NCBI GenBank assembly: GCA_027451745.1
Contig: DAIDIP010000025.1
Span: forward strand, 1-36,189
Direction: 5' to 3'
Length of the DNA stretch: 36,189 nt
Origin: Candidatus Melainabacteria bacterium
GTDB lineage: Bacteria > Cyanobacteriota > Vampirovibrionia > Obscuribacterales > Obscuribacteraceae
The position numbers were made by a program, and so were the translations under genes. The notes beneath the pieces were generated by a model. It made no database searches. It was not told the DNA's origin and saw nothing but the letters and a program-made list of their open reading frames with translations. Positions 12,883 through 24,714 of this stretch are shown here, one piece after another. Position 1 is the first letter of the stretch. Each line of letters begins with the position of its first letter.

Positions 12883-13314
12883 TCATTTTGAAGGAAATTC
12901 ACACAAGGGGATTGATAATGTTGGACGAGCGAGCAAATCAGAAATGGTAGTCTCAGCAAAAGTTTTCTCAATTAATGCTGTTGCTTCATCCAGTCTTTTA
13001 TGCAGAGCGCACAAATTACTGCCATGTGCTTTAAGATCAAGAGGGCATCTTTTTATACGTTGAATAGGATCAACTGCATTCAACACTGCCAGAATATCTA
13101 TTTTGCCAGCAGATTTAGCTAAAATGAAACCACCGCCGATTCCTCTTTGAGATTTTATCAAGTCAGCTTTTACCAGCGATTGAAGCACTTTAGAAAGGTA
13201 AGCTGAGGGCACTTTAGTGACCACAGAAATCTGCCTAGTTGTGAATTCACTACCTGGATTCATCGCCAGATAAACTACGGCACGCAAAGCATATTCTGCT
13301 GTTCGAGATATCAT
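12883..13314 (-). CDS. Rrf2-family transcriptional regulator
   Basis: A 143-residue winged-helix regulator. The family start (MISRTAEYALRAVVYLA), the recognition helix region (VPSAYLSKVLQSLVKADLI) and the wing (SQRGIGGGFILAKSA) are all present. The Cys pattern is RCPLDLKAHGSNLCALH, giving Cys90 and Cys102, with a third Cys near the C-terminus (IPLCEF). Typical NsrR/IscR proteins carry three clustered Cys ligands, so a [Fe-S] cluster here would need a different third ligand. A strong GGAGGAGG ribosome site supports the start. It lies 17 bases after the RIC gene, same strand, so it is probably in one operon. Likely a sensor of NO or Fe-S status that controls its own operon through the dyad at 14301-14332. 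Confidence 0.9.
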   Translation of the reverse strand: MISRTAEYALRAVVYLAMNPGSEFTTRQISVVTKVPSAYLSKVLQSLVKADLIKSQRGIGGGFILAKSAGKIDILAVLNAVDPIQRIKRCPLDLKAHGSNLCALHKRLDEATALIEKTFAETTISDLLARPTLSIPLCEFPSK

Positions 13315-13331: not shown

Positions 13332-14285
13332 TTAAGGTTTTGTTGCCGTCGCTTGTGTCTTATTGATGCCACGTAACAACAGAGCTCGTGGAAATAATAT
13401 ATTGTTTTCTTTGTGCACATGCTCATGCATTTGAGCTTCGAATTTAGCTAATGAATGAAGCAGAACTTTAAAAGTGTTGCAAGCATCGCTAGGTGGAGTG
13501 TATTCATGCGTTAACTGCCGCATAGTGCCAAGAGCATCGCCGGCTACTTCATGTTCCTGAGTCATTACATCAATTGGCTGTTCAATCCCCCCACCGCAAC
13601 CTACAAATTGTAGATCTCCTCCTGCCTCGATACGGACAATAGCAGGAAATAAAATCATTTCTTCTTTTTGCATATGTAATTCTAATTGTGTTCTAAAATC
13701 ACTCAATACTTCTTTAACCTTGATCATCTCTGGATGATTTTCGCCATGAACACGCGCTACTTTATCTGCAAGTTCTGTTACACGCACTAGCTCTTGTCGC
13801 AATGGTTCATGATATGACTCTACTATATGTTCTATCAGTTTGTTCAGACTAGATTGTGTCCAATCGGGTTCATGAGACTGACCTTCTTTGGCAATAACCG
13901 CTCGAAATTTTTCCAATAAATATTCCACCTTTACACCCTTCTTGCGGCAGGCTTCATCTAATTTGCCTTTACCACCACAACAATAATCAATTCCATATTG
14001 CTCTAAAAGACAAGCAACAGATGGATGTTCTGCTACTATTTGCTCAACAGTCATGCTGCCATCAATGACGTTCTTCTTTTCTGTTTCCACTGCACAGTTT
14101 TGTCCATGAGATGGAAAGCTCACACAAGAGCAGGGTTGAAACATATCTTTTGTAGAACCACATTCTGGACATTTCCATTCATCAGATAAATCTTCAAATT
14201 TCAGCATTTGCTTAGTGTCTGATTTACCCTTTGCTTCATCATAAATATAATTACAAACTGTACAGATAGTTTTGCCGTTTGACAT
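13332..14285 (-). CDS. Rubredoxin-RIC fusion: Fe-S cluster repair di-iron protein (ScdA/YtfE family)
   Basis: A 317-residue protein in three parts. Residues 1-50 are a rubredoxin-like iron site: C8-TV-C11 and C39-PE-C42, around TICTVCNYIYDEAKG. A Cys-rich linker (C52, C54, C64) follows. Residues about 74-132 are the ScdA_N/DUF542 domain (MTVEQIVAEHPSVACLLEQYGIDYCCGGKG). Residues about 145-300 are a hemerythrin-like four-helix bundle with His/Glu ligands (IEHIVESYHE, LELHMQKEE, MTQEHEVAGD, HEHVHKENNILFPR). RIC proteins repair Fe-S clusters damaged by NO or oxidants; they are usually near 220 residues and lack the rubredoxin part. The added domain could deliver electrons to the di-iron site in the same chain; that is inference. 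GAGGGGG gives a good ribosome site. Confidence 0.9.
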   Translation of the reverse strand: MSNGKTICTVCNYIYDEAKGKSDTKQMLKFEDLSDEWKCPECGSTKDMFQPCSCVSFPSHGQNCAVETEKKNVIDGSMTVEQIVAEHPSVACLLEQYGIDYCCGGKGKLDEACRKKGVKVEYLLEKFRAVIAKEGQSHEPDWTQSSLNKLIEHIVESYHEPLRQELVRVTELADKVARVHGENHPEMIKVKEVLSDFRTQLELHMQKEEMILFPAIVRIEAGGDLQFVGCGGGIEQPIDVMTQEHEVAGDALGTMRQLTHEYTPPSDACNTFKVLLHSLAKFEAQMHEHVHKENNILFPRALLLRGINKTQATATKP

Positions 14286-14300
14286 AAATACCGCCCCCTC

Positions 14301-14332
14301 ATTATAGATATCTGGACCTTTATATCTATAAT
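14301..14332. promoter_or_regulatory. Candidate Rrf2 operator: perfect 11-bp inverted repeat
   Basis: ATTATAGATAT, a 10-base spacer, then ATATCTATAAT, with no mismatch. It sits 16 bases upstream of the RIC start codon and includes TATAAT-like -10 sequence, so binding would block transcription. The regulator encoded two genes downstream is the natural candidate to bind it. Confidence 0.6.
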
Positions 14333-14432
14333 AACGAAGCTGTCATTAAAGCGAACCAGTCTAAAGGATGATCTTGCTTCAATAACGTGAAAACTCAATC
14401 CCTTCCAATAAAGCCCACTGCTAACAAAAACA

Positions 14433-15170
14433 TCATTGAACGAGAGGATAATTATCTTGAAAAATTGAGCGACAGGCCTTCTGGTTTTCTGCTTCTAGCA
14501 GAGCTAAAAGGTTGCGACAATTCTTCTGATTAAGTGCCGTTCCATGCATAGTCGCCAAAATGGGGATATTGATGTCCTGCAGTCTTCGAATACCCTCCGC
14601 CATTGACGGTCCAAAAGGCATATAGCCCAGTTTTTGTTGTAGAGCAAAAATCTCCTCAACGACATCACGATTATCTAATGAATCTTTAAATCCCTGCTGT
14701 GTACCAATATCCGAACCGAATAGCACACCACTTGTAGTATCATAAAATACGCTTGCTTCCCAAGCATGAGGAAAATGTGGTGTTTCAATCATTTTCAATT
14801 TATGCTTACCAAGATCCAAGATTTCTCCATCTTTCAATACTAAAGATGGTTTACCAATAAAACCTTTTACTGACCAGTCGCATATTTTGTTAATGGCGAC
14901 TTGGGCGTTTAGTGCAATCTCAAGCCATTCATTCAAGCTCCCACACTCATCTGGTTCAAAATGAGAAAAAGTAATATAGCTCAGATTTTCAGCATTTATT
15001 ATCTTGTTTACTTCTTCATAGACATATTGAAAAAGCTCCCGATGCCCTGTATGAATCAATGTTGGCTTTTCATCTTTAATAAGAAAATGATTGAACGAAA
15101 TAAAGCTGCCTTTAGGACGCAAACAAATCCGGAAGATGTTTTGTTGAATCTCCTCGATCTTTGTGTCCAT
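14433..15170 (-). CDS. ODP-type (flavodiiron-like) metallo-beta-lactamase-fold diiron protein
   Basis: A 245-residue protein with the fold of the diiron domain of flavodiiron proteins but no flavodoxin domain. Predicted ligands in order: His70, Glu72 and Asp74 in SHFEPDECGS (the HxExD motif that marks this group), His132 or His135 in TPHFPHAWEA, Asp154 in FGSD, and His209 in ATMHGT. Such stand-alone proteins (ODP) bind O2 and act in oxygen sensing or O2/NO handling. The start has a GGGTG site upstream. It begins 33 bases after the rpoC2 stop on the same strand, so it may be read from the rpo transcript. It is followed, after 147 bases, by the RIC-Rrf2 pair. Confidence 0.88.
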   Translation of the reverse strand: MDTKIEEIQQNIFRICLRPKGSFISFNHFLIKDEKPTLIHTGHRELFQYVYEEVNKIINAENLSYITFSHFEPDECGSLNEWLEIALNAQVAINKICDWSVKGFIGKPSLVLKDGEILDLGKHKLKMIETPHFPHAWEASVFYDTTSGVLFGSDIGTQQGFKDSLDNRDVVEEIFALQQKLGYMPFGPSMAEGIRRLQDINIPILATMHGTALNQKNCRNLLALLEAENQKACRSIFQDNYPLVQ

Positions 15171-15203: not shown

Positions 15204-18200
15204 TTAAACAGGAGCGTTGAAACTGCCTTCACCAATTGGAGGATAAATGTCTTCTTCCTCATCCTCTGGTTCAGTGGTCATTTCATGACCCTGGAAGCCA
15301 GTACCAGCAGGAATTAGACGTCCAATGATGACGTTTTCTTTCAAACCGCGCAACCAGTCTTTCTTACCTTCTACAGCTGCTTCAGTAAGAATTCTCGTGG
15401 TTTCTTGGAATGATGCAGCAGAGATGAAGCTTTCTGTATTCAAGCTAGCTTTGGTTATGCCAAGCAGTATAGGAGAATAAGCTGCCTCTATTTGCTCATT
15501 CATTGCCGCTTTTTCGTTTTCATTTTGAATATAGAAACGATCGAGCAATTCACCAGGAAGCATGATTGTTTCGCCAGGCTCATCTACACGTACTTTTCTA
15601 GTCATCTGACGAACAATTACTTCGATATGTTTGTCAGCGATTTCTACACCTTGCGAGCGATAAACTGATTGCACTTCATCAACTAGATATTTTTGTGCAG
15701 CTTCCAAACCACGCAGTCTTACAACATCGTGTGGATTTGGTGGACCATCGGTAAGTGCTTTACCAAGAGTAATTTCTTCGCTATCTTCAACAATGACGTT
15801 CAGTCCGGCTGGAATGGAGATTTCTTCTTCATTACCGTCGCCATAAACGACAAATAAATGGGTAAGATCTTCTTCCATTACTATTTTAGCTTTACCAGCT
15901 TTTTCAGCTAGGATCGCACTTTCTTTTGGTTTTCTTGCTTCTAGCAATTCTTCTACACGAGGCAAACCTTGAACGATATCTCCAGTTTTTTGTCTTTCAA
16001 AGATTAGAGTTGCTAGCAAATCGCCTCTTTGTACTAGAGCGCCATCTTCGCCTTGCAATTGAGTATTTGTAGAAATAAGATAAGGTCTACCTTTACGTAC
16101 AACTACTTCACCAGCTTCAACGCCAGTTACTTGCCCAGAATGAACTGCAGGTGTAGCTTTGGAAAGCGGATCACCAGCTTTCACTAGATCGCCTTCTTTA
16201 GATGTTGGATTACCTTTTATTTGATGAGGTATTTGCTGATCAGCTGTAATAAGCAAAATTCTGCGTTCATCTGTCTTGGATAATTGCACACGAGCAGAAG
16301 TCTTAGTTAACACCTGTGTTGTAGCCACAGGAGCTTTGGCTTCTACTATTTCGCCTGGCTCAACAGAGAGCAAGGTGACATTCAAATCTTGATCGCGACG
16401 CAACAGAATATTTTCTTGTACGACGATATTCAACTCTTCGCCAATTTCTACGATACCTTTGAGTGTTTGAAGATGTCCTTGCATCTGCAATACTAAAGAT
16501 GTACGAGTCAATTGAGCGCCATTGATATTGCGCACTTTTTCGCGATCTTTGAACAGCAATTGTGTCACTGCTCTTAGACTGATTTTGTCATCAGTGGCTT
16601 TGTATTTAAATTTAGTATCTAAAGGTTCAATCCAGAATTCTTCTACTGGTCTTACCAATACATACATGGTGCCATCTTCACGTTCGAAGATATTGACCAT
16701 CTTTCTTTCTTTGAATGTCAAACCAGCAATAATTTCAGTACCTGGTTCAACAACTTGCCCTTCTGGTACTTTTACTTCAGTTGGGTCGGTAATAACATGC
16801 AATTCACCAGGACGAATAACTACTTCGTGAATAATGTCATTATCAGCAACGATTTCAATGATCCCGTCCATATGGGCGAATACATCTTTAACCACTTCCT
16901 GACCAGCGGTGACTTGCTCTGCTGTTTCAGCTATCTTTAGTGAAATATCTTTGGAGATGAAATGCACTTCTTCAGGTACAAAGAGCACACGACCTGGCTT
17001 AATAATTACCCGTCTGTCGTCTACTTCTACACCATCATAAATAATCTCACCACCGCTGCGGACAACATTTTCACCTTCATCAATAAGTTCAGCAACGATT
17101 TTGCCGTTTTCAACGATTTCATCATTTACTACTTTGATAACAAAGTTTTCTTTTGTCTTTGCTACACGCCAGATATAACCTTGTTTGCTGGCTTCCAATT
17201 TGCCATTAGCAGCACCAACCGACGAAATAATGATGGTTATCTCTTTACCTTTAACAAGTCTAGTTACCTGCTTACGACCTGATTTAACCACTTCGGTTTC
17301 AATTTCAGGACCGAATCTGACTTCCCCACCATATTCAGTACCAATGGTTATTTCAGCCAAAACATCCAAAGGTTTAACGTCCTGACCGTCTTTAACTACA
17401 ACATGAGCACCTGAAGGCAAGTTATATACGTCACCTTCTAATACCCAGATAATGCCACTCCGGTTGGCAGTGCGTGAAATATTACCTTGTCTATCACGTT
17501 TTTCATCAGCCTGGAAGCCATGGAACATGACCCGACCAGAAATATCAGCAGTAATATCTTTTGTAGCCCGTTCAGTTAGGTTTTTCTTAGCACCTGGTGG
17601 ATCATATTCAGCTAACACGGTACCAGATTTTACCTCTGTACCAGATGGGATCAATATCAAACTACCTTGTGATATTGGCACACTATGTTCTTTGGTGCCA
17701 GATATTTTGATCACACCATCTTTGGTTGTTTGTTCAACAACATCACCATAGGCAGTACGTACAGAGCGGCTAGGAATATTGAAGGTCATAGTTCCAGCCC
17801 CTGGAGCCTTTAATTGGGCACGGCTAGCACCACCAGCTACAGCACCACCGGTGTGGAATGTTCTCATGGTGAGCTGAGTTCCAGGCTCACCGATTGATTG
17901 AGCAGCGATAATACCGATTGCTTCACCAATATCTACCAATCTGTTATTGGTTAATGACCAACCATAACATTTTTGGCAAACGCCAAATTGGCTCTCACAA
18001 GTAAGCGGTGAACGTACTTTGACATTTCTGTCTTTTTTGCTGCCAGCAGCAATTTTTTCAGCCAATTCACGATGAACTAAATCACCAGTTTTAGCAATGA
18101 TTTCACCTGTTTCTTGATCGGCAATGTCTTCAGCTAGCACACGACCATAAATACGCTCGGTCAATTTGACCATAGCTTTATCGCCTTCCATAATGGCTTG

Positions 18201-18887
18201 CATATTAATGCTGCGCTTTGACTTACAATCAAGATCGCGAACAATTACATCTTGAGCAACGTCTACTAGACGTCTAGTTAAATAACCAGAGTCAGCTGTT
18301 TTCAAGGCTGTATCTACAAGACCCTTACGAGCTCCGTAGCTGGAAATGATGTATTCAGTAACGTTCAAGCCTTCACGGAAATTGGCTTTAATTGGCAAGT
18401 CAATAATCTGACCTTGAGAATCAGCCATCAAACCACGCATACCAACTAACTGACGAACCTGAGAGATATTACCCCGGGCACCAGAGAAAGCCATCATATA
18501 CACTGGATTTAAGCGATCAAAATTATCCACAACTTCTTTTGTTAATTGGTCAGTGGTTGCAGACCAGGTATCGATAACTTTGTTATAGCGCTCAACTTCT
18601 GTGATTTCCCCAAGTTCATAACGTTTTTGAGCAGCTTCAATTTCTTTTTCTGCGCTAGAAATTAATCCACGTTTTGCTTCTGGAACATCAAGGTCATTAA
18701 TAGAAATGGTCACGCCAGCTTTAGTAGCATATTTAAAACCAAGATCTTTCAATGTATTAGCTAGCTCTGAAGATCGAGCTGTGCCAAATTTTTCATACAC
18801 TGTAGATAGGAGAGCGCCAAGTTTTTTCTTGTCCACAGTTTGGTTAATGAATTCCAACTGGTCCTTCTTATCGGTATTAGCCGCCAT
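15204..18887 (-). CDS. rpoC2: RNA polymerase beta' subunit, C-terminal part
   Basis: 1227 residues. It begins where cyanobacterial RpoC2 begins (INQTVDKKKLGALL). The segment SGARGNISQVRQLVGMRGL (about 135-153), the bridge helix (GARKG 185-189, then TADSGYLTRRLVD), the second zinc site (Cys221, Cys297, Cys304, Cys307) and the start of the trigger loop (QSIGEPGTQLTMRTFHTGG, with His345) are intact. From about 349 to 955 runs a long beta-rich insertion within the trigger loop, corresponding to the large SI3 of cyanobacteria. The conserved chain resumes at GLPRVEELLEARKPKE (about 967). An AGAGGAT ribosome site supports the start. It is the third gene of rpoB-rpoC1-rpoC2. The length is somewhat under that of Synechocystis. 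Confidence 0.97.
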   Translation of the reverse strand: MAANTDKKDQLEFINQTVDKKKLGALLSTVYEKFGTARSSELANTLKDLGFKYATKAGVTISINDLDVPEAKRGLISSAEKEIEAAQKRYELGEITEVERYNKVIDTWSATTDQLTKEVVDNFDRLNPVYMMAFSGARGNISQVRQLVGMRGLMADSQGQIIDLPIKANFREGLNVTEYIISSYGARKGLVDTALKTADSGYLTRRLVDVAQDVIVRDLDCKSKRSINMQAIMEGDKAMVKLTERIYGRVLAEDIADQETGEIIAKTGDLVHRELAEKIAAGSKKDRNVKVRSPLTCESQFGVCQKCYGWSLTNNRLVDIGEAIGIIAAQSIGEPGTQLTMRTFHTGGAVAGGASRAQLKAPGAGTMTFNIPSRSVRTAYGDVVEQTTKDGVIKISGTKEHSVPISQGSLILIPSGTEVKSGTVLAEYDPPGAKKNLTERATKDITADISGRVMFHGFQADEKRDRQGNISRTANRSGIIWVLEGDVYNLPSGAHVVVKDGQDVKPLDVLAEITIGTEYGGEVRFGPEIETEVVKSGRKQVTRLVKGKEITIIISSVGAANGKLEASKQGYIWRVAKTKENFVIKVVNDEIVENGKIVAELIDEGENVVRSGGEIIYDGVEVDDRRVIIKPGRVLFVPEEVHFISKDISLKIAETAEQVTAGQEVVKDVFAHMDGIIEIVADNDIIHEVVIRPGELHVITDPTEVKVPEGQVVEPGTEIIAGLTFKERKMVNIFEREDGTMYVLVRPVEEFWIEPLDTKFKYKATDDKISLRAVTQLLFKDREKVRNINGAQLTRTSLVLQMQGHLQTLKGIVEIGEELNIVVQENILLRRDQDLNVTLLSVEPGEIVEAKAPVATTQVLTKTSARVQLSKTDERRILLITADQQIPHQIKGNPTSKEGDLVKAGDPLSKATPAVHSGQVTGVEAGEVVVRKGRPYLISTNTQLQGEDGALVQRGDLLATLIFERQKTGDIVQGLPRVEELLEARKPKESAILAEKAGKAKIVMEEDLTHLFVVYGDGNEEEISIPAGLNVIVEDSEEITLGKALTDGPPNPHDVVRLRGLEAAQKYLVDEVQSVYRSQGVEIADKHIEVIVRQMTRKVRVDEPGETIMLPGELLDRFYIQNENEKAAMNEQIEAAYSPILLGITKASLNTESFISAASFQETTRILTEAAVEGKKDWLRGLKENVIIGRLIPAGTGFQGHEMTTEPEDEEEDIYPPIGEGSFNAPV

Positions 18888-18910
18888 GTATTTGATCCTC
18901 TTTTTATGCG

Positions 18911-18951
18911 CTGCCTCGCTTCAGTTCCTTCAGCTCGTACGCGCGTATCCT
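18911..18951. repeat. Degenerate GC-rich interspersed repeat, copy A (between rpoC1 and rpoC2)
   Basis: Begins CTGCCTCG and ends TATCCT on the plus strand, like the two copies at 26.1-26.2 kb. It contains the perfect palindrome TACGCGCGTA (18938-18947). It lies in the 109-base gap of an essential operon. Confidence 0.55.
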
Positions 18952-18966
18952 ACTTCGTTCACATGC

Positions 18967-18985
18967 GGATGCTTCACCAGCATCC
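18967..18985 (-). other. Stem-loop just after the rpoC1 stop
   Basis: GGATGC and GCATCC form a perfect 6-bp stem around a 7-base loop, 11 bases after the rpoC1 stop codon. No T-run follows, so it is not a Rho-independent terminator. A processing or stability element is possible. Confidence 0.4.
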
Positions 18986-18996
18986 TTGTTTCACTT

Positions 18997-20796
18997 TTAT
19001 GTAACTGATGCTACTGCTTCTCTTACTGCTTGATTGAAAATTACACGACCTGGTGTGGTTTCAATTGTTTGACCATCAGCGTCCCGCACTTTGATCTTGG
19101 CGTGTAAATCTACAACACCAGATTCATAAGCAGCACGTGCATCAGCCAAATTGACAAAACGCATACCAGCTCCCCTACATGCTTTAGGATCATCACTACC
19201 TGGCTTTTCGATAGTCAGATAATATATACCTAGAACCATGTCTTGAGTAGGTGTAATAGTTGGTCTACCAGTTGCTGGCAACAATATATTGTTAGAAGCT
19301 AGCATAAGCATATGAGCTTCTGATTGCGCCTCTACTGATAGTGGCACGTGCACAGCCATTTGGTCCCCGTCGAAGTCAGCGTTAAATGCCGAACAAACAA
19401 GCGGATGCAATTGAATAGCTCGTCCTTCTACCAATACTGGTTCGAAAGCTTGAATACCTAAGCGGTGAAGCGTAGGAGCACGGTTAAGCAATACTGGATG
19501 TCCTTGAATTACTTCTTCAAGAATTTCCCAAACAATTGCTGAACCTTTTTCGATTTGCTTCTTAGCTGATTTGATGTTTTGAACAATTTGACGTTCAATC
19601 AATTTGTTAATAACAAATGGTTTGAACAATTCAATTGCCATTTCACGAGGTAAACCACATTGATGTAATTTCAATGTTGGTCCGACAACAATTACAGATC
19701 GTCCAGAATAGTCAACCCGCTTACCTAACAAGTTTTGACGGAAACGACCTTGCTTACCTTCAATAATGTTAGACAAAGATTTCAATGGACGATTGTTTGG
19801 ACCAACCACAACTCTTCCACGGCGACCATTATCGATTAGAGCATCTACTGCTTCTTGCAACATCCGTTTTTCATTACGTACGATAATTTCAGGCGCACCC
19901 ATTTCTAATAGACGTGACAAACGATTATTACGGTTAATAACCCGCCTGTATAAGTCATTAAGATCAGATGTAGCAAAACGTCCACCATCTAATTGCACCA
20001 TTGGGCGCAAATCAGGTGGGGTTACCGGAAGATTATCTAATACAACCCAATTAGGATCTGTATTTGAATTAACTAGAGCTTCAACCAAGCGTAAGCGCTT
20101 AATGATTTTGGCTCTCTTTTGTTGCGAACCACCAGCTGTTGCTAGTTCTTCACGGAGTTGCCCAGATAATTCTTTCAATCCTGGCAAGTCCATTAGACGG
20201 CCACGATCTTCTTTGTTGTCTGGACGCTCATATACTGGTTTGGCTATTTCTTGCAAAAGTTGTTTAACGGCTTCTGCACCAATACCAACGTCAAATTGCA
20301 AATTGATATCATCTAAAAGTCTTTCATATTCTTCTTCTGAAAGAAGTTGATGTTTGGCCAAATCAGGCACATTGCCTGGATTGACTACAATATATGCATT
20401 GAAATAAACAACTTGCTCCAAATCACGCAATGGCAGGTCAAGCAAAAGACCAATATAACTTGGAATACCTTTAAGAAACCAGATATGGGTTACTGGGCAA
20501 GCCAAACGAATGTGTCCCATGCGATGACGACGAACTTTTGAATCAGTTACTTCTACACCACAACGCTCGCAAGTGATACCGCGATGACGAACTCGCTTAT
20601 ACTTACCGCAATAGCATTCCCAGTCCTTTGAGGGTCCAAAAATACGTTCGCAGAATAAACCATCTTTTTCTGGTTTCAAAGTACGATAGTTGATCGTCTC
20701 TGGTTTAGTGACTTCTCCGTGTGACCAGCTCAAAATACGTTCCGGTGACGCAACGCCAATTTTTATATAGTCAAAACGATCGATACTCGTAGCCAT
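18997..20796 (-). CDS. rpoC1: RNA polymerase gamma subunit (N-terminal part of beta')
   Basis: 599 residues. The N-terminal zinc site is C61-Y-C63 and C76-ER-C79. The absolutely conserved catalytic motif NADFDGDQ is at 472-479, so Asp474, Asp476 and Asp478 hold the Mg2+. [20 protein letters not shown] and the rudder and active-site helices are complete. The chain ends after [12 protein letters not shown], directly before the segment that starts RpoC2, so the two chains together make one full beta'. This split is shared by Cyanobacteria and their non-photosynthetic relatives and is the best taxonomic clue here. A strong AGGAGG site, 9 bases before the ATG, fixes the start. It lies 49 bases after rpoB. 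Confidence 0.98.
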
Positions 20797-24457: not shown

Positions 24458-24714
24458 CGGTTACCTCTATTATTTTCCTATCTACTACTACGGTTTTAAT
24501 CACTAATCAGTTTATTTTATATATGAAAGAATGGGGACAAATGGTGGTTGTAAATTCAAAGTCTTTTGATATTGCTTTGAATTTAAAAAAATGGTTTTTA
24601 ATTGAGCATGAAACACCTGTCAGCAAGAAAGCAAAGCGCAATTGGTCTAGCTAGATTTCTCTATCTTGCAAGCACGATATGACGCGGCAAGCGCGCATAA
24701 AGCTTGAAGGAGCA

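Follow-up and report, generated by a model that had tools for sequence, protein, structure and literature searches.

Among the closest described counterparts of the locus analysed here is the NsrR regulon of gamma- and beta-proteobacteria, Bacillus and Streptomyces, in which the targets of a repressor of the Rrf2 family include hcp, dnrN (RIC/ytfE), nnrS, norB and globin genes. The cluster motif of NsrR consists of three cysteines, CX5CX5C. In the available part of one account, its operator motif is given as gATGyAT-N5-ATrCATc, and enterobacterial hcp has an FNR-like site upstream and an NsrR site downstream (PMC1274295). Operators of other Rrf2 proteins, as far as the accessible parts of the sources go, span 23 bp for ScNsrR (PMC9338935) or are arranged as 11-3-11 for RsrR of Streptomyces venezuelae, a protein initially taken for NsrR, which also has half-site targets and is tied to NAD(P)H metabolism and not to nitrosative stress (PMC5015018); the cluster ligands of RsrR are Cys, Glu and His, according to the title of a work cited in PMC9338935. 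HcpR, for which control of hcp or norB through the site TTGACnnnnGTCAA has been proposed in two cyanobacteria (PMC1274295, available in part), has proposed targets similar to those described below but belongs to the CRP/FNR family and not to Rrf2.

We found that an element composed of a -10 box and an inverted repeat, TATTAT-RGAYATAAAGGTCCANWTATCYA, recurs in Obscuribacterales, and that the repeat is likely the operator of a neighbouring NsrR-like Rrf2 repressor. Obscuribacterales are non-photosynthetic and related to cyanobacteria. A literature search, in the sources as far as these were available, found no report of such a regulon in Obscuribacterales and no binding, expression or NO data for it. 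The element offers a testable nitrosative-stress regulon for this order and a predicted NO-responsive Rrf2 clade with likely cluster ligands unlike those of NsrR, while the operator with its naturally occurring variants, and the choice between a -35 box and an activator site, could serve as probes of how Rrf2 proteins choose their DNA and hold their metal centre.

The RIC-Rrf2 locus and its regulator

The window, by which we mean the whole stretch of 36,189 nucleotides that was analysed, contains the following features, all on the reverse strand.

12883-13314, reverse strand: Rrf2-family regulator, presumed operator-binding repressor, with E7, C90, H97, C102 and H105 (profile matches)
13332-14285, reverse strand: rubredoxin-ScdA_N-hemerythrin fusion, iron-sulfur repair di-iron protein, RIC/YtfE (profile matches)
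14301-14332, reverse strand: perfect 11-10-11 inverted repeat (direct sequence match)
14305-14328, reverse strand: conserved putative operator core TAGATATAAAGGTCCAGATATCTA, 24 bp, 11-2-11 (conservation in relatives)
14305-14311, reverse strand: half-site 3, ATATCTA, which with half-site 1 forms the dyad of the initial annotation (conservation in relatives)
14313-14317, reverse strand: half-site 2, GTCCA, which with half-site 1 forms the inner dyad TGGAY-N6-RTCCA of relatives
14322-14328, reverse strand: half-site 1, TAGATAT, family form TRGAYAT (conservation in relatives)
14328-14333, reverse strand: -10 box TATTAT, of which one base also belongs to half-site 1 (kept in relatives)
14355-14372, reverse strand: degenerate copy (13/16) of the palindrome ATCATCCT-N2-AGGATGAT, centred 30 bp before the -10 box

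The initial annotation had placed the dyad in front of the rubredoxin-RIC gene of an operon that also encodes an Rrf2 regulator, and this is the order of the locus: the dyad lies between an ODP gene and the RIC gene, and the Rrf2 gene comes next. The ODP-family gene, which encodes a beta-lactamase fold (14433-15170, reverse strand), stands between rpoC2 and the putative operator. RpoC itself is divided over two genes of 599 and 1227 amino acids (15204-20796), a split also seen in cyanobacteria.

The regulator is a member of the Rrf2 superfamily (PF02082, 101.6 bits against a cut-off of 30; TIGR00738, 107.2 against 73.3), and it scores below the cut-offs of both the NsrR equivalog model (53.2 bits, cut-off 182) and the IscR model TIGR02010 (55 bits, cut-off 207.55). 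The unusual cysteine pattern that had been noted in it turned out to characterise a whole clade, in which C-X6-H-X4-C-X2-H replaces the CX5CX5C of NsrR in 62 of 63 aligned proteins. The residues C90, H97, C102 and H105 are kept jointly in these 62 proteins, position 7 is Glu in 61 and Asp in two of the 63, and the middle cysteine that is found in NsrR and in IscR, a protein of the same family, is absent from all 63. When aligned to ScNsrR (5n07), C102 meets the last cysteine of the cluster motif. Compared with RsrR, the clade conserves E7, but its histidines stand 7 and 15 residues after C90. Together the conserved residues support a putative metal or Fe-S centre in which the set of ligands is altered, the predicted ones being E7, C90 and C102 plus one or both of H97 and H105.

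Conservation and anatomy of the promoter element

ATTATAGATAT-N10-ATATCTATAAT occupies 14301-14332, exactly where a perfect 32-base dyad had been claimed: the 11-base arms match at 11 of 11 positions around the 10-base spacer CTGGACCTTT, and at up to three mismatches the pattern matches nowhere else, either in the window or in the rest of the genome (2.996 Mb). The bare repeat is weak evidence for function. The window holds two perfect inverted repeats with 11-base arms and a spacer of at most 20 bases, and when the window was shuffled 200 times with its dinucleotides preserved, 56 of the shuffles contained at least one equal repeat, so that we dropped the perfect-repeat statistic as proof; among shuffles of the 147-bp intergenic region, 3 of 5000 contained such a repeat. 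We judge the repeat to be above chance because the element is conserved in relatives, not because the repeat is rare. A chance palindrome in AT-rich DNA, which the 56 window shuffles would allow, has a negligible probability when set against the conservation of the element with at most one mismatch, at matching promoters, in 24 of the 53 genomes of the family (f1) and its sister family (f2). No site of this quality occurs in the 141 other genomes of the class, where two-mismatch matches number 30 against 76 for the backward control. The other perfect inverted repeat of the window (24551-24585, TAAATTCAAAG-N13-CTTTGAATTTA) lies upstream of rpoB.

RIC is present in 40 of the 146 genomes searched, including the genome of the window itself. 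With repeated loci (e.g. L003 and L032) counted once, an Rrf2 gene follows directly 3' of RIC on the same strand in 16 relative loci and is divergent from it in 12. The RIC-then-Rrf2 loci include L066, though only the rubredoxin part of RIC matched there, and L049, where the Rrf2 match is in two frames; the gene order is also the same in L057, which is more distant, and L009 and L010 have no Rrf2 gene within the available RIC flank. Conservation of the dyad upstream of RIC-Rrf2 loci in relatives had been named beforehand as a point on which its interpretation could fall. The outcome was favourable: a -10 box running into the operator element was found upstream of RIC in 19 of 21 regions (window included). 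It is absent before RIC in L017 and L051, where the RIC match lacks the rubredoxin part, and present in L050 although the RIC match lacks that part there as well. The operator element of L049 is weak (score 7.2). Rrf2 match in two frames and weakened operator being found together in this locus, which belongs to G048, it is possibly a natural loss of both. Among promoters of the divergent type, 17 have the element, and in 12 of these a TTGAC-type -35 box stands 16-17 bases ahead of the -10 box.

The dyad had also been said to overlap a -10-like sequence. The overlap is real, and the -10 box concerned is TATTAT at 14328-14333 (reverse strand), which is conserved, whereas TATAAT at 14301-14306, in the other arm and nearer to the start codon, is not conserved in relatives and was ruled out. 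TATTAT was fixed as the -10 box because in relatives a TTGAC-type or TTGACA-like -35 box stands 16-18 bases upstream of the same box; the transcription start is predicted near 14321. The promoter beneath the putative operator is of the sigma-70 type, a -10 box plus either a -35 box or a candidate activator site. With the -10 box overlapping one arm and the conserved core confined to 14305-14328, the 11-base arms in their full length consist in part of promoter and flanking sequence; the 32-bp perfection is partly due to these, and the core measures 24 bp.

An inverted repeat of about 23-25 bp is the geometry of Rrf2 operators, and it is found in the 24-bp core, with the inner dyad as a rival. 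Arranged as 11-2-11, the core is intermediate in length: the NsrR site has 23 bp, and the 11-3-11 site of RsrR is one base longer than the core, as these are described in the available parts of the sources. It does not follow the NsrR motif: the half-sites are TRGAYAT with a 10-base spacer, and GAYAT-N10-ATRTC has an even centre, whereas the NsrR motif has an odd one (PMC1274295, available in part).

Symmetry was analysed for 37 possible axes in 51 promoters (50 distinct; the rows are related), with L049 included and L164, whose matrix score is only 11.0, omitted. The axis of the initial annotation is the most symmetric of the 37 (0.488 against 0.453 for shuffled partners, with 1 of 1000 shuffles as high), and the inner axis TGGAY-N6-RTCCA ranks second (0.452 against 0.440, with 124 of 1000 as high). 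The symmetry coupling of the former (z 3.1) is equalled by axes 9.5, 20.0 and 22.5, so that coupling alone does not settle the choice of axis. The inner dyad is better kept than the outer one: out of 50 rows, its core pairs GGA-Y/R-TCC are symmetric in 36, 40, 42 and 49, and in g23-type promoters it is the sole dyad. A third, better kept half-site thus lies inside the spacer, which gives three half-sites at 0, +11 and +21 bp, all facing the same side of the helix. The four symmetric core pairs, and the retention in g23-type promoters of repeats like TCTGGAC-N6-GTCCA without half-site 3, favour a functional Rrf2 operator that is the inner 16-bp dyad of half-sites 1 and 2, with half-site 3 optional (for a second dimer or cooperativity) and the perfection of the outer dyad a local coincidence of -10 box and flanking bases. 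We regard this as rather unlikely, since the outer axis is the most symmetric one and the published operators of 23 bp (ScNsrR, PMC9338935) or 11-3-11 (RsrR, PMC5015018), in the parts available, fit a 24-bp pairing of half-sites 1 and 3. In L164 (2506-2540), a perfect CTGGAATT-N10-AATTCCAG repeat occurs in the operator register, close to an Rrf2 gene that belongs to the same alignment, and is possibly a compensated variant.

The arms are complementary, and a transcript covering both could fold into an RNA hairpin in the leader, acting as riboswitch, thermometer or stability element in place of a DNA operator. We rejected this as very improbable because half-site 1 overlaps the -10 box and should precede the transcript, in which, with the start placed from the -10 and -35 boxes, only half-sites 2 and 3 would be present.

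The second palindrome, ATCATCCT-N2-AGGATGAT, is distributed over the 51 promoters in a way almost complementary to the -35 box: with cut-offs of our own choice (11/16 for the palindrome, 5/6 for the -35 box), 24 promoters have a -35 box, 26 the palindrome, two both and three neither (Fisher 3.6e-9). Its centre falls 29-31 bp before the -10 box in 24 of the 26 and at 32 and 33 bp in the remaining two, and all 19 promoters of the RIC-then-Rrf2 type carry it. That the palindrome mostly stands in place of a -35 box suggests a putative activator site; sites of class II CRP/FNR activators are centred near -41.5. Among the matches listed, the palindrome occurs at up to two mismatches in at least 42 of the 50 family genomes, and the backward pattern in 6. 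Of 32 neighbouring genes, 13 were scanned: three have no family, and the others encode hcp, HypF, NnrS, a cytochrome c, a beta-eliminating lyase, two universal stress proteins, and ArsR, HxlR and rhodanese proteins, which suggests that the regulator may be an anaerobic or respiratory one. A single CRP-family match lies above the cut-off in the genome of the window; for this sole clear CRP-family protein, neither a link to the palindrome nor a role as the activator was demonstrated.

Genes behind the site and its co-occurrence with Rrf2

Scanning the 50 genomes of the family with the pattern TATWMTRGAYATAAAGGTMCANWT at up to three mismatches yielded 55 matches in 32 genomes, against 5 for the pattern read backwards as control. 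By an assignment made by hand from coordinates, without a single script, 46 of the 55 lie at RIC, Rrf2, hcp, NO-reductase, globin, hemerythrin, NnrS or rubredoxin genes, and the other nine are unlinked or were not examined (G005:C1:496606, G029:C4, G012:C233, G001:C3, G033:C263, G019:C2, G043:C399, G025:C120, G004:C28). All 28 matches with at most one mismatch are at RIC, Rrf2 or hcp promoters. Across the lineage, the site fronts an NO-detoxification gene set of RIC, hcp, NorB, globins, hemerythrin and NnrS. Pfam matches of the site-linked genes are Prismane (L131, L139), Globin (L133), Bac_globin (L140, L129), Hemerythrin (L137) and Rubredoxin (L140), and in L135 two such genes encode NnrS with DUF1858 and Rubredoxin. 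NorB/COX1 lies directly behind the site in L136 and after Rrf2 in L138. In L129, L132, L151 and L152 it diverges from an Rrf2 promoter that carries the site, and in L154 from one with a weak site.

RIC, ODP, hcp and isc/suf genes had been proposed as the places to look for further copies. This held for RIC and hcp in the lineage; the examined sites showed neither isc nor suf genes, a further difference from IscR, and ODP had no match beside RIC at E 1e-5 among L003-L067 (flanks of about 1.5-3 kb, less at contig ends), which ruled it out as a member of a conserved operon. The genome of the window has one good site only, at RIC-Rrf2, and hcp gave no match there; a looser pattern adds one two-mismatch match (G000:C8:2348). 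At 13 loci with Rrf2 paralogues (L148-L150, L153, L155-L159, L161, L163, L166, L167) no matrix match exceeded 9.

Within the family, with Rrf2 presence called at E up to 1e-20, 27 of the 35 genomes that have this Rrf2 contain a site with at most two mismatches, against none of the 15 that lack it (Fisher 2e-7). G005 is counted here through an unlinked match, its linked site having three mismatches, and without it the figures are 26 of 35 and Fisher 6e-7; at up to three mismatches, sites are found in 29 of 35 genomes with and 3 of 15 without Rrf2. The eight Rrf2 genomes that have no match at two mismatches are G012, G022, G023, G041, G042, G043, G045 and G048. Weaker or variant sites are present in six of them, and none was found in G041 and G042. 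This co-occurrence is partly the inheritance of one locus, as most sites adjoin the Rrf2 gene, and the rows are related and several genomes incomplete. Cleaner evidence comes from f2, where in G050 and G052 the site precedes rubredoxin-RIC whereas Rrf2 genes of 56-64% identity lie on another contig, behind a NorB gene, and in G051 (88% complete) site, RIC and Rrf2 are all missing.

The element might instead belong to another regulator, or be a mere extended promoter with a coincidental Rrf2 neighbour. An AAAGGT core, kept beyond the demands of symmetry and overlapping the expected transcription start, would fit such an explanation; we consider it improbable, given that the site tracks the presence of Rrf2, even across contigs, and not that of RIC. 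No site was found in the three RIC-bearing f1 genomes that lack this Rrf2 (G008, G018, G021), and stand-alone Rrf2 genes (e.g. G007, G032, G047) carry the site at their own promoters. The site was also sought before norB at the norB-rrf2-rrf2 run of f2, without a match. There, in L252 and L253, two tandem Rrf2 genes stand behind a NorB gene, whose upstream region holds another palindrome, GATATTAATATC.

Proposed regulation by Rrf2

The reading of the dyad as a likely Rrf2 operator, already put forward by the initial annotation, is supported by conservation, by the NO-related gene set and by the tracking of Rrf2 presence, from which we infer binding. We propose that the dyad is recognised by the Rrf2 protein whose gene comes second in this presumed operon, and that a dimer of the holo-protein would block RNA polymerase by sitting on 14305-14328, a stretch that reaches from the -10 box to about +17. 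Nitrosative damage to the predicted metal or Fe-S cofactor would free Rrf2 from the operator, upon which RIC and the regulator itself would be produced. This would be a negative feedback loop of the kind known for NsrR. In the lineage, hcp, NO-reductase, globin and NnrS genes, and further Rrf2 genes, may also be served by this type of regulator. As a -35 box is lacking, a second factor, acting about 30 bp before the -10 box, would be required for transcription to start; this order of activator and operator resembles the FNR and NsrR layout of enterobacterial hcp. Taken as a whole, an Rrf2 operator with NO-released repression, a feedback loop and the need for an upstream activator is the explanation we hold to be highly probable.

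A more specific version, possible but somewhat doubtful, is that these proteins form a separate class of Rrf2 NO sensors, in which the Glu, Cys and His ligands E7, C90, H97, C102 and H105 would replace the three cysteines of NsrR. Such a sensor would act on the operator of three half-sites, where occupancy of the inner or the outer pair could grade the repression, together with an activator, perhaps an anaerobic one, standing in for the -35 box. Apart from the RIC-Rrf2 locus, the lineage-wide palindrome seen at 14355-14372 of the window and in L199-L218 appears to mark a large regulon, with hcp, NnrS, HypF, Usp and HxlR genes nearby.
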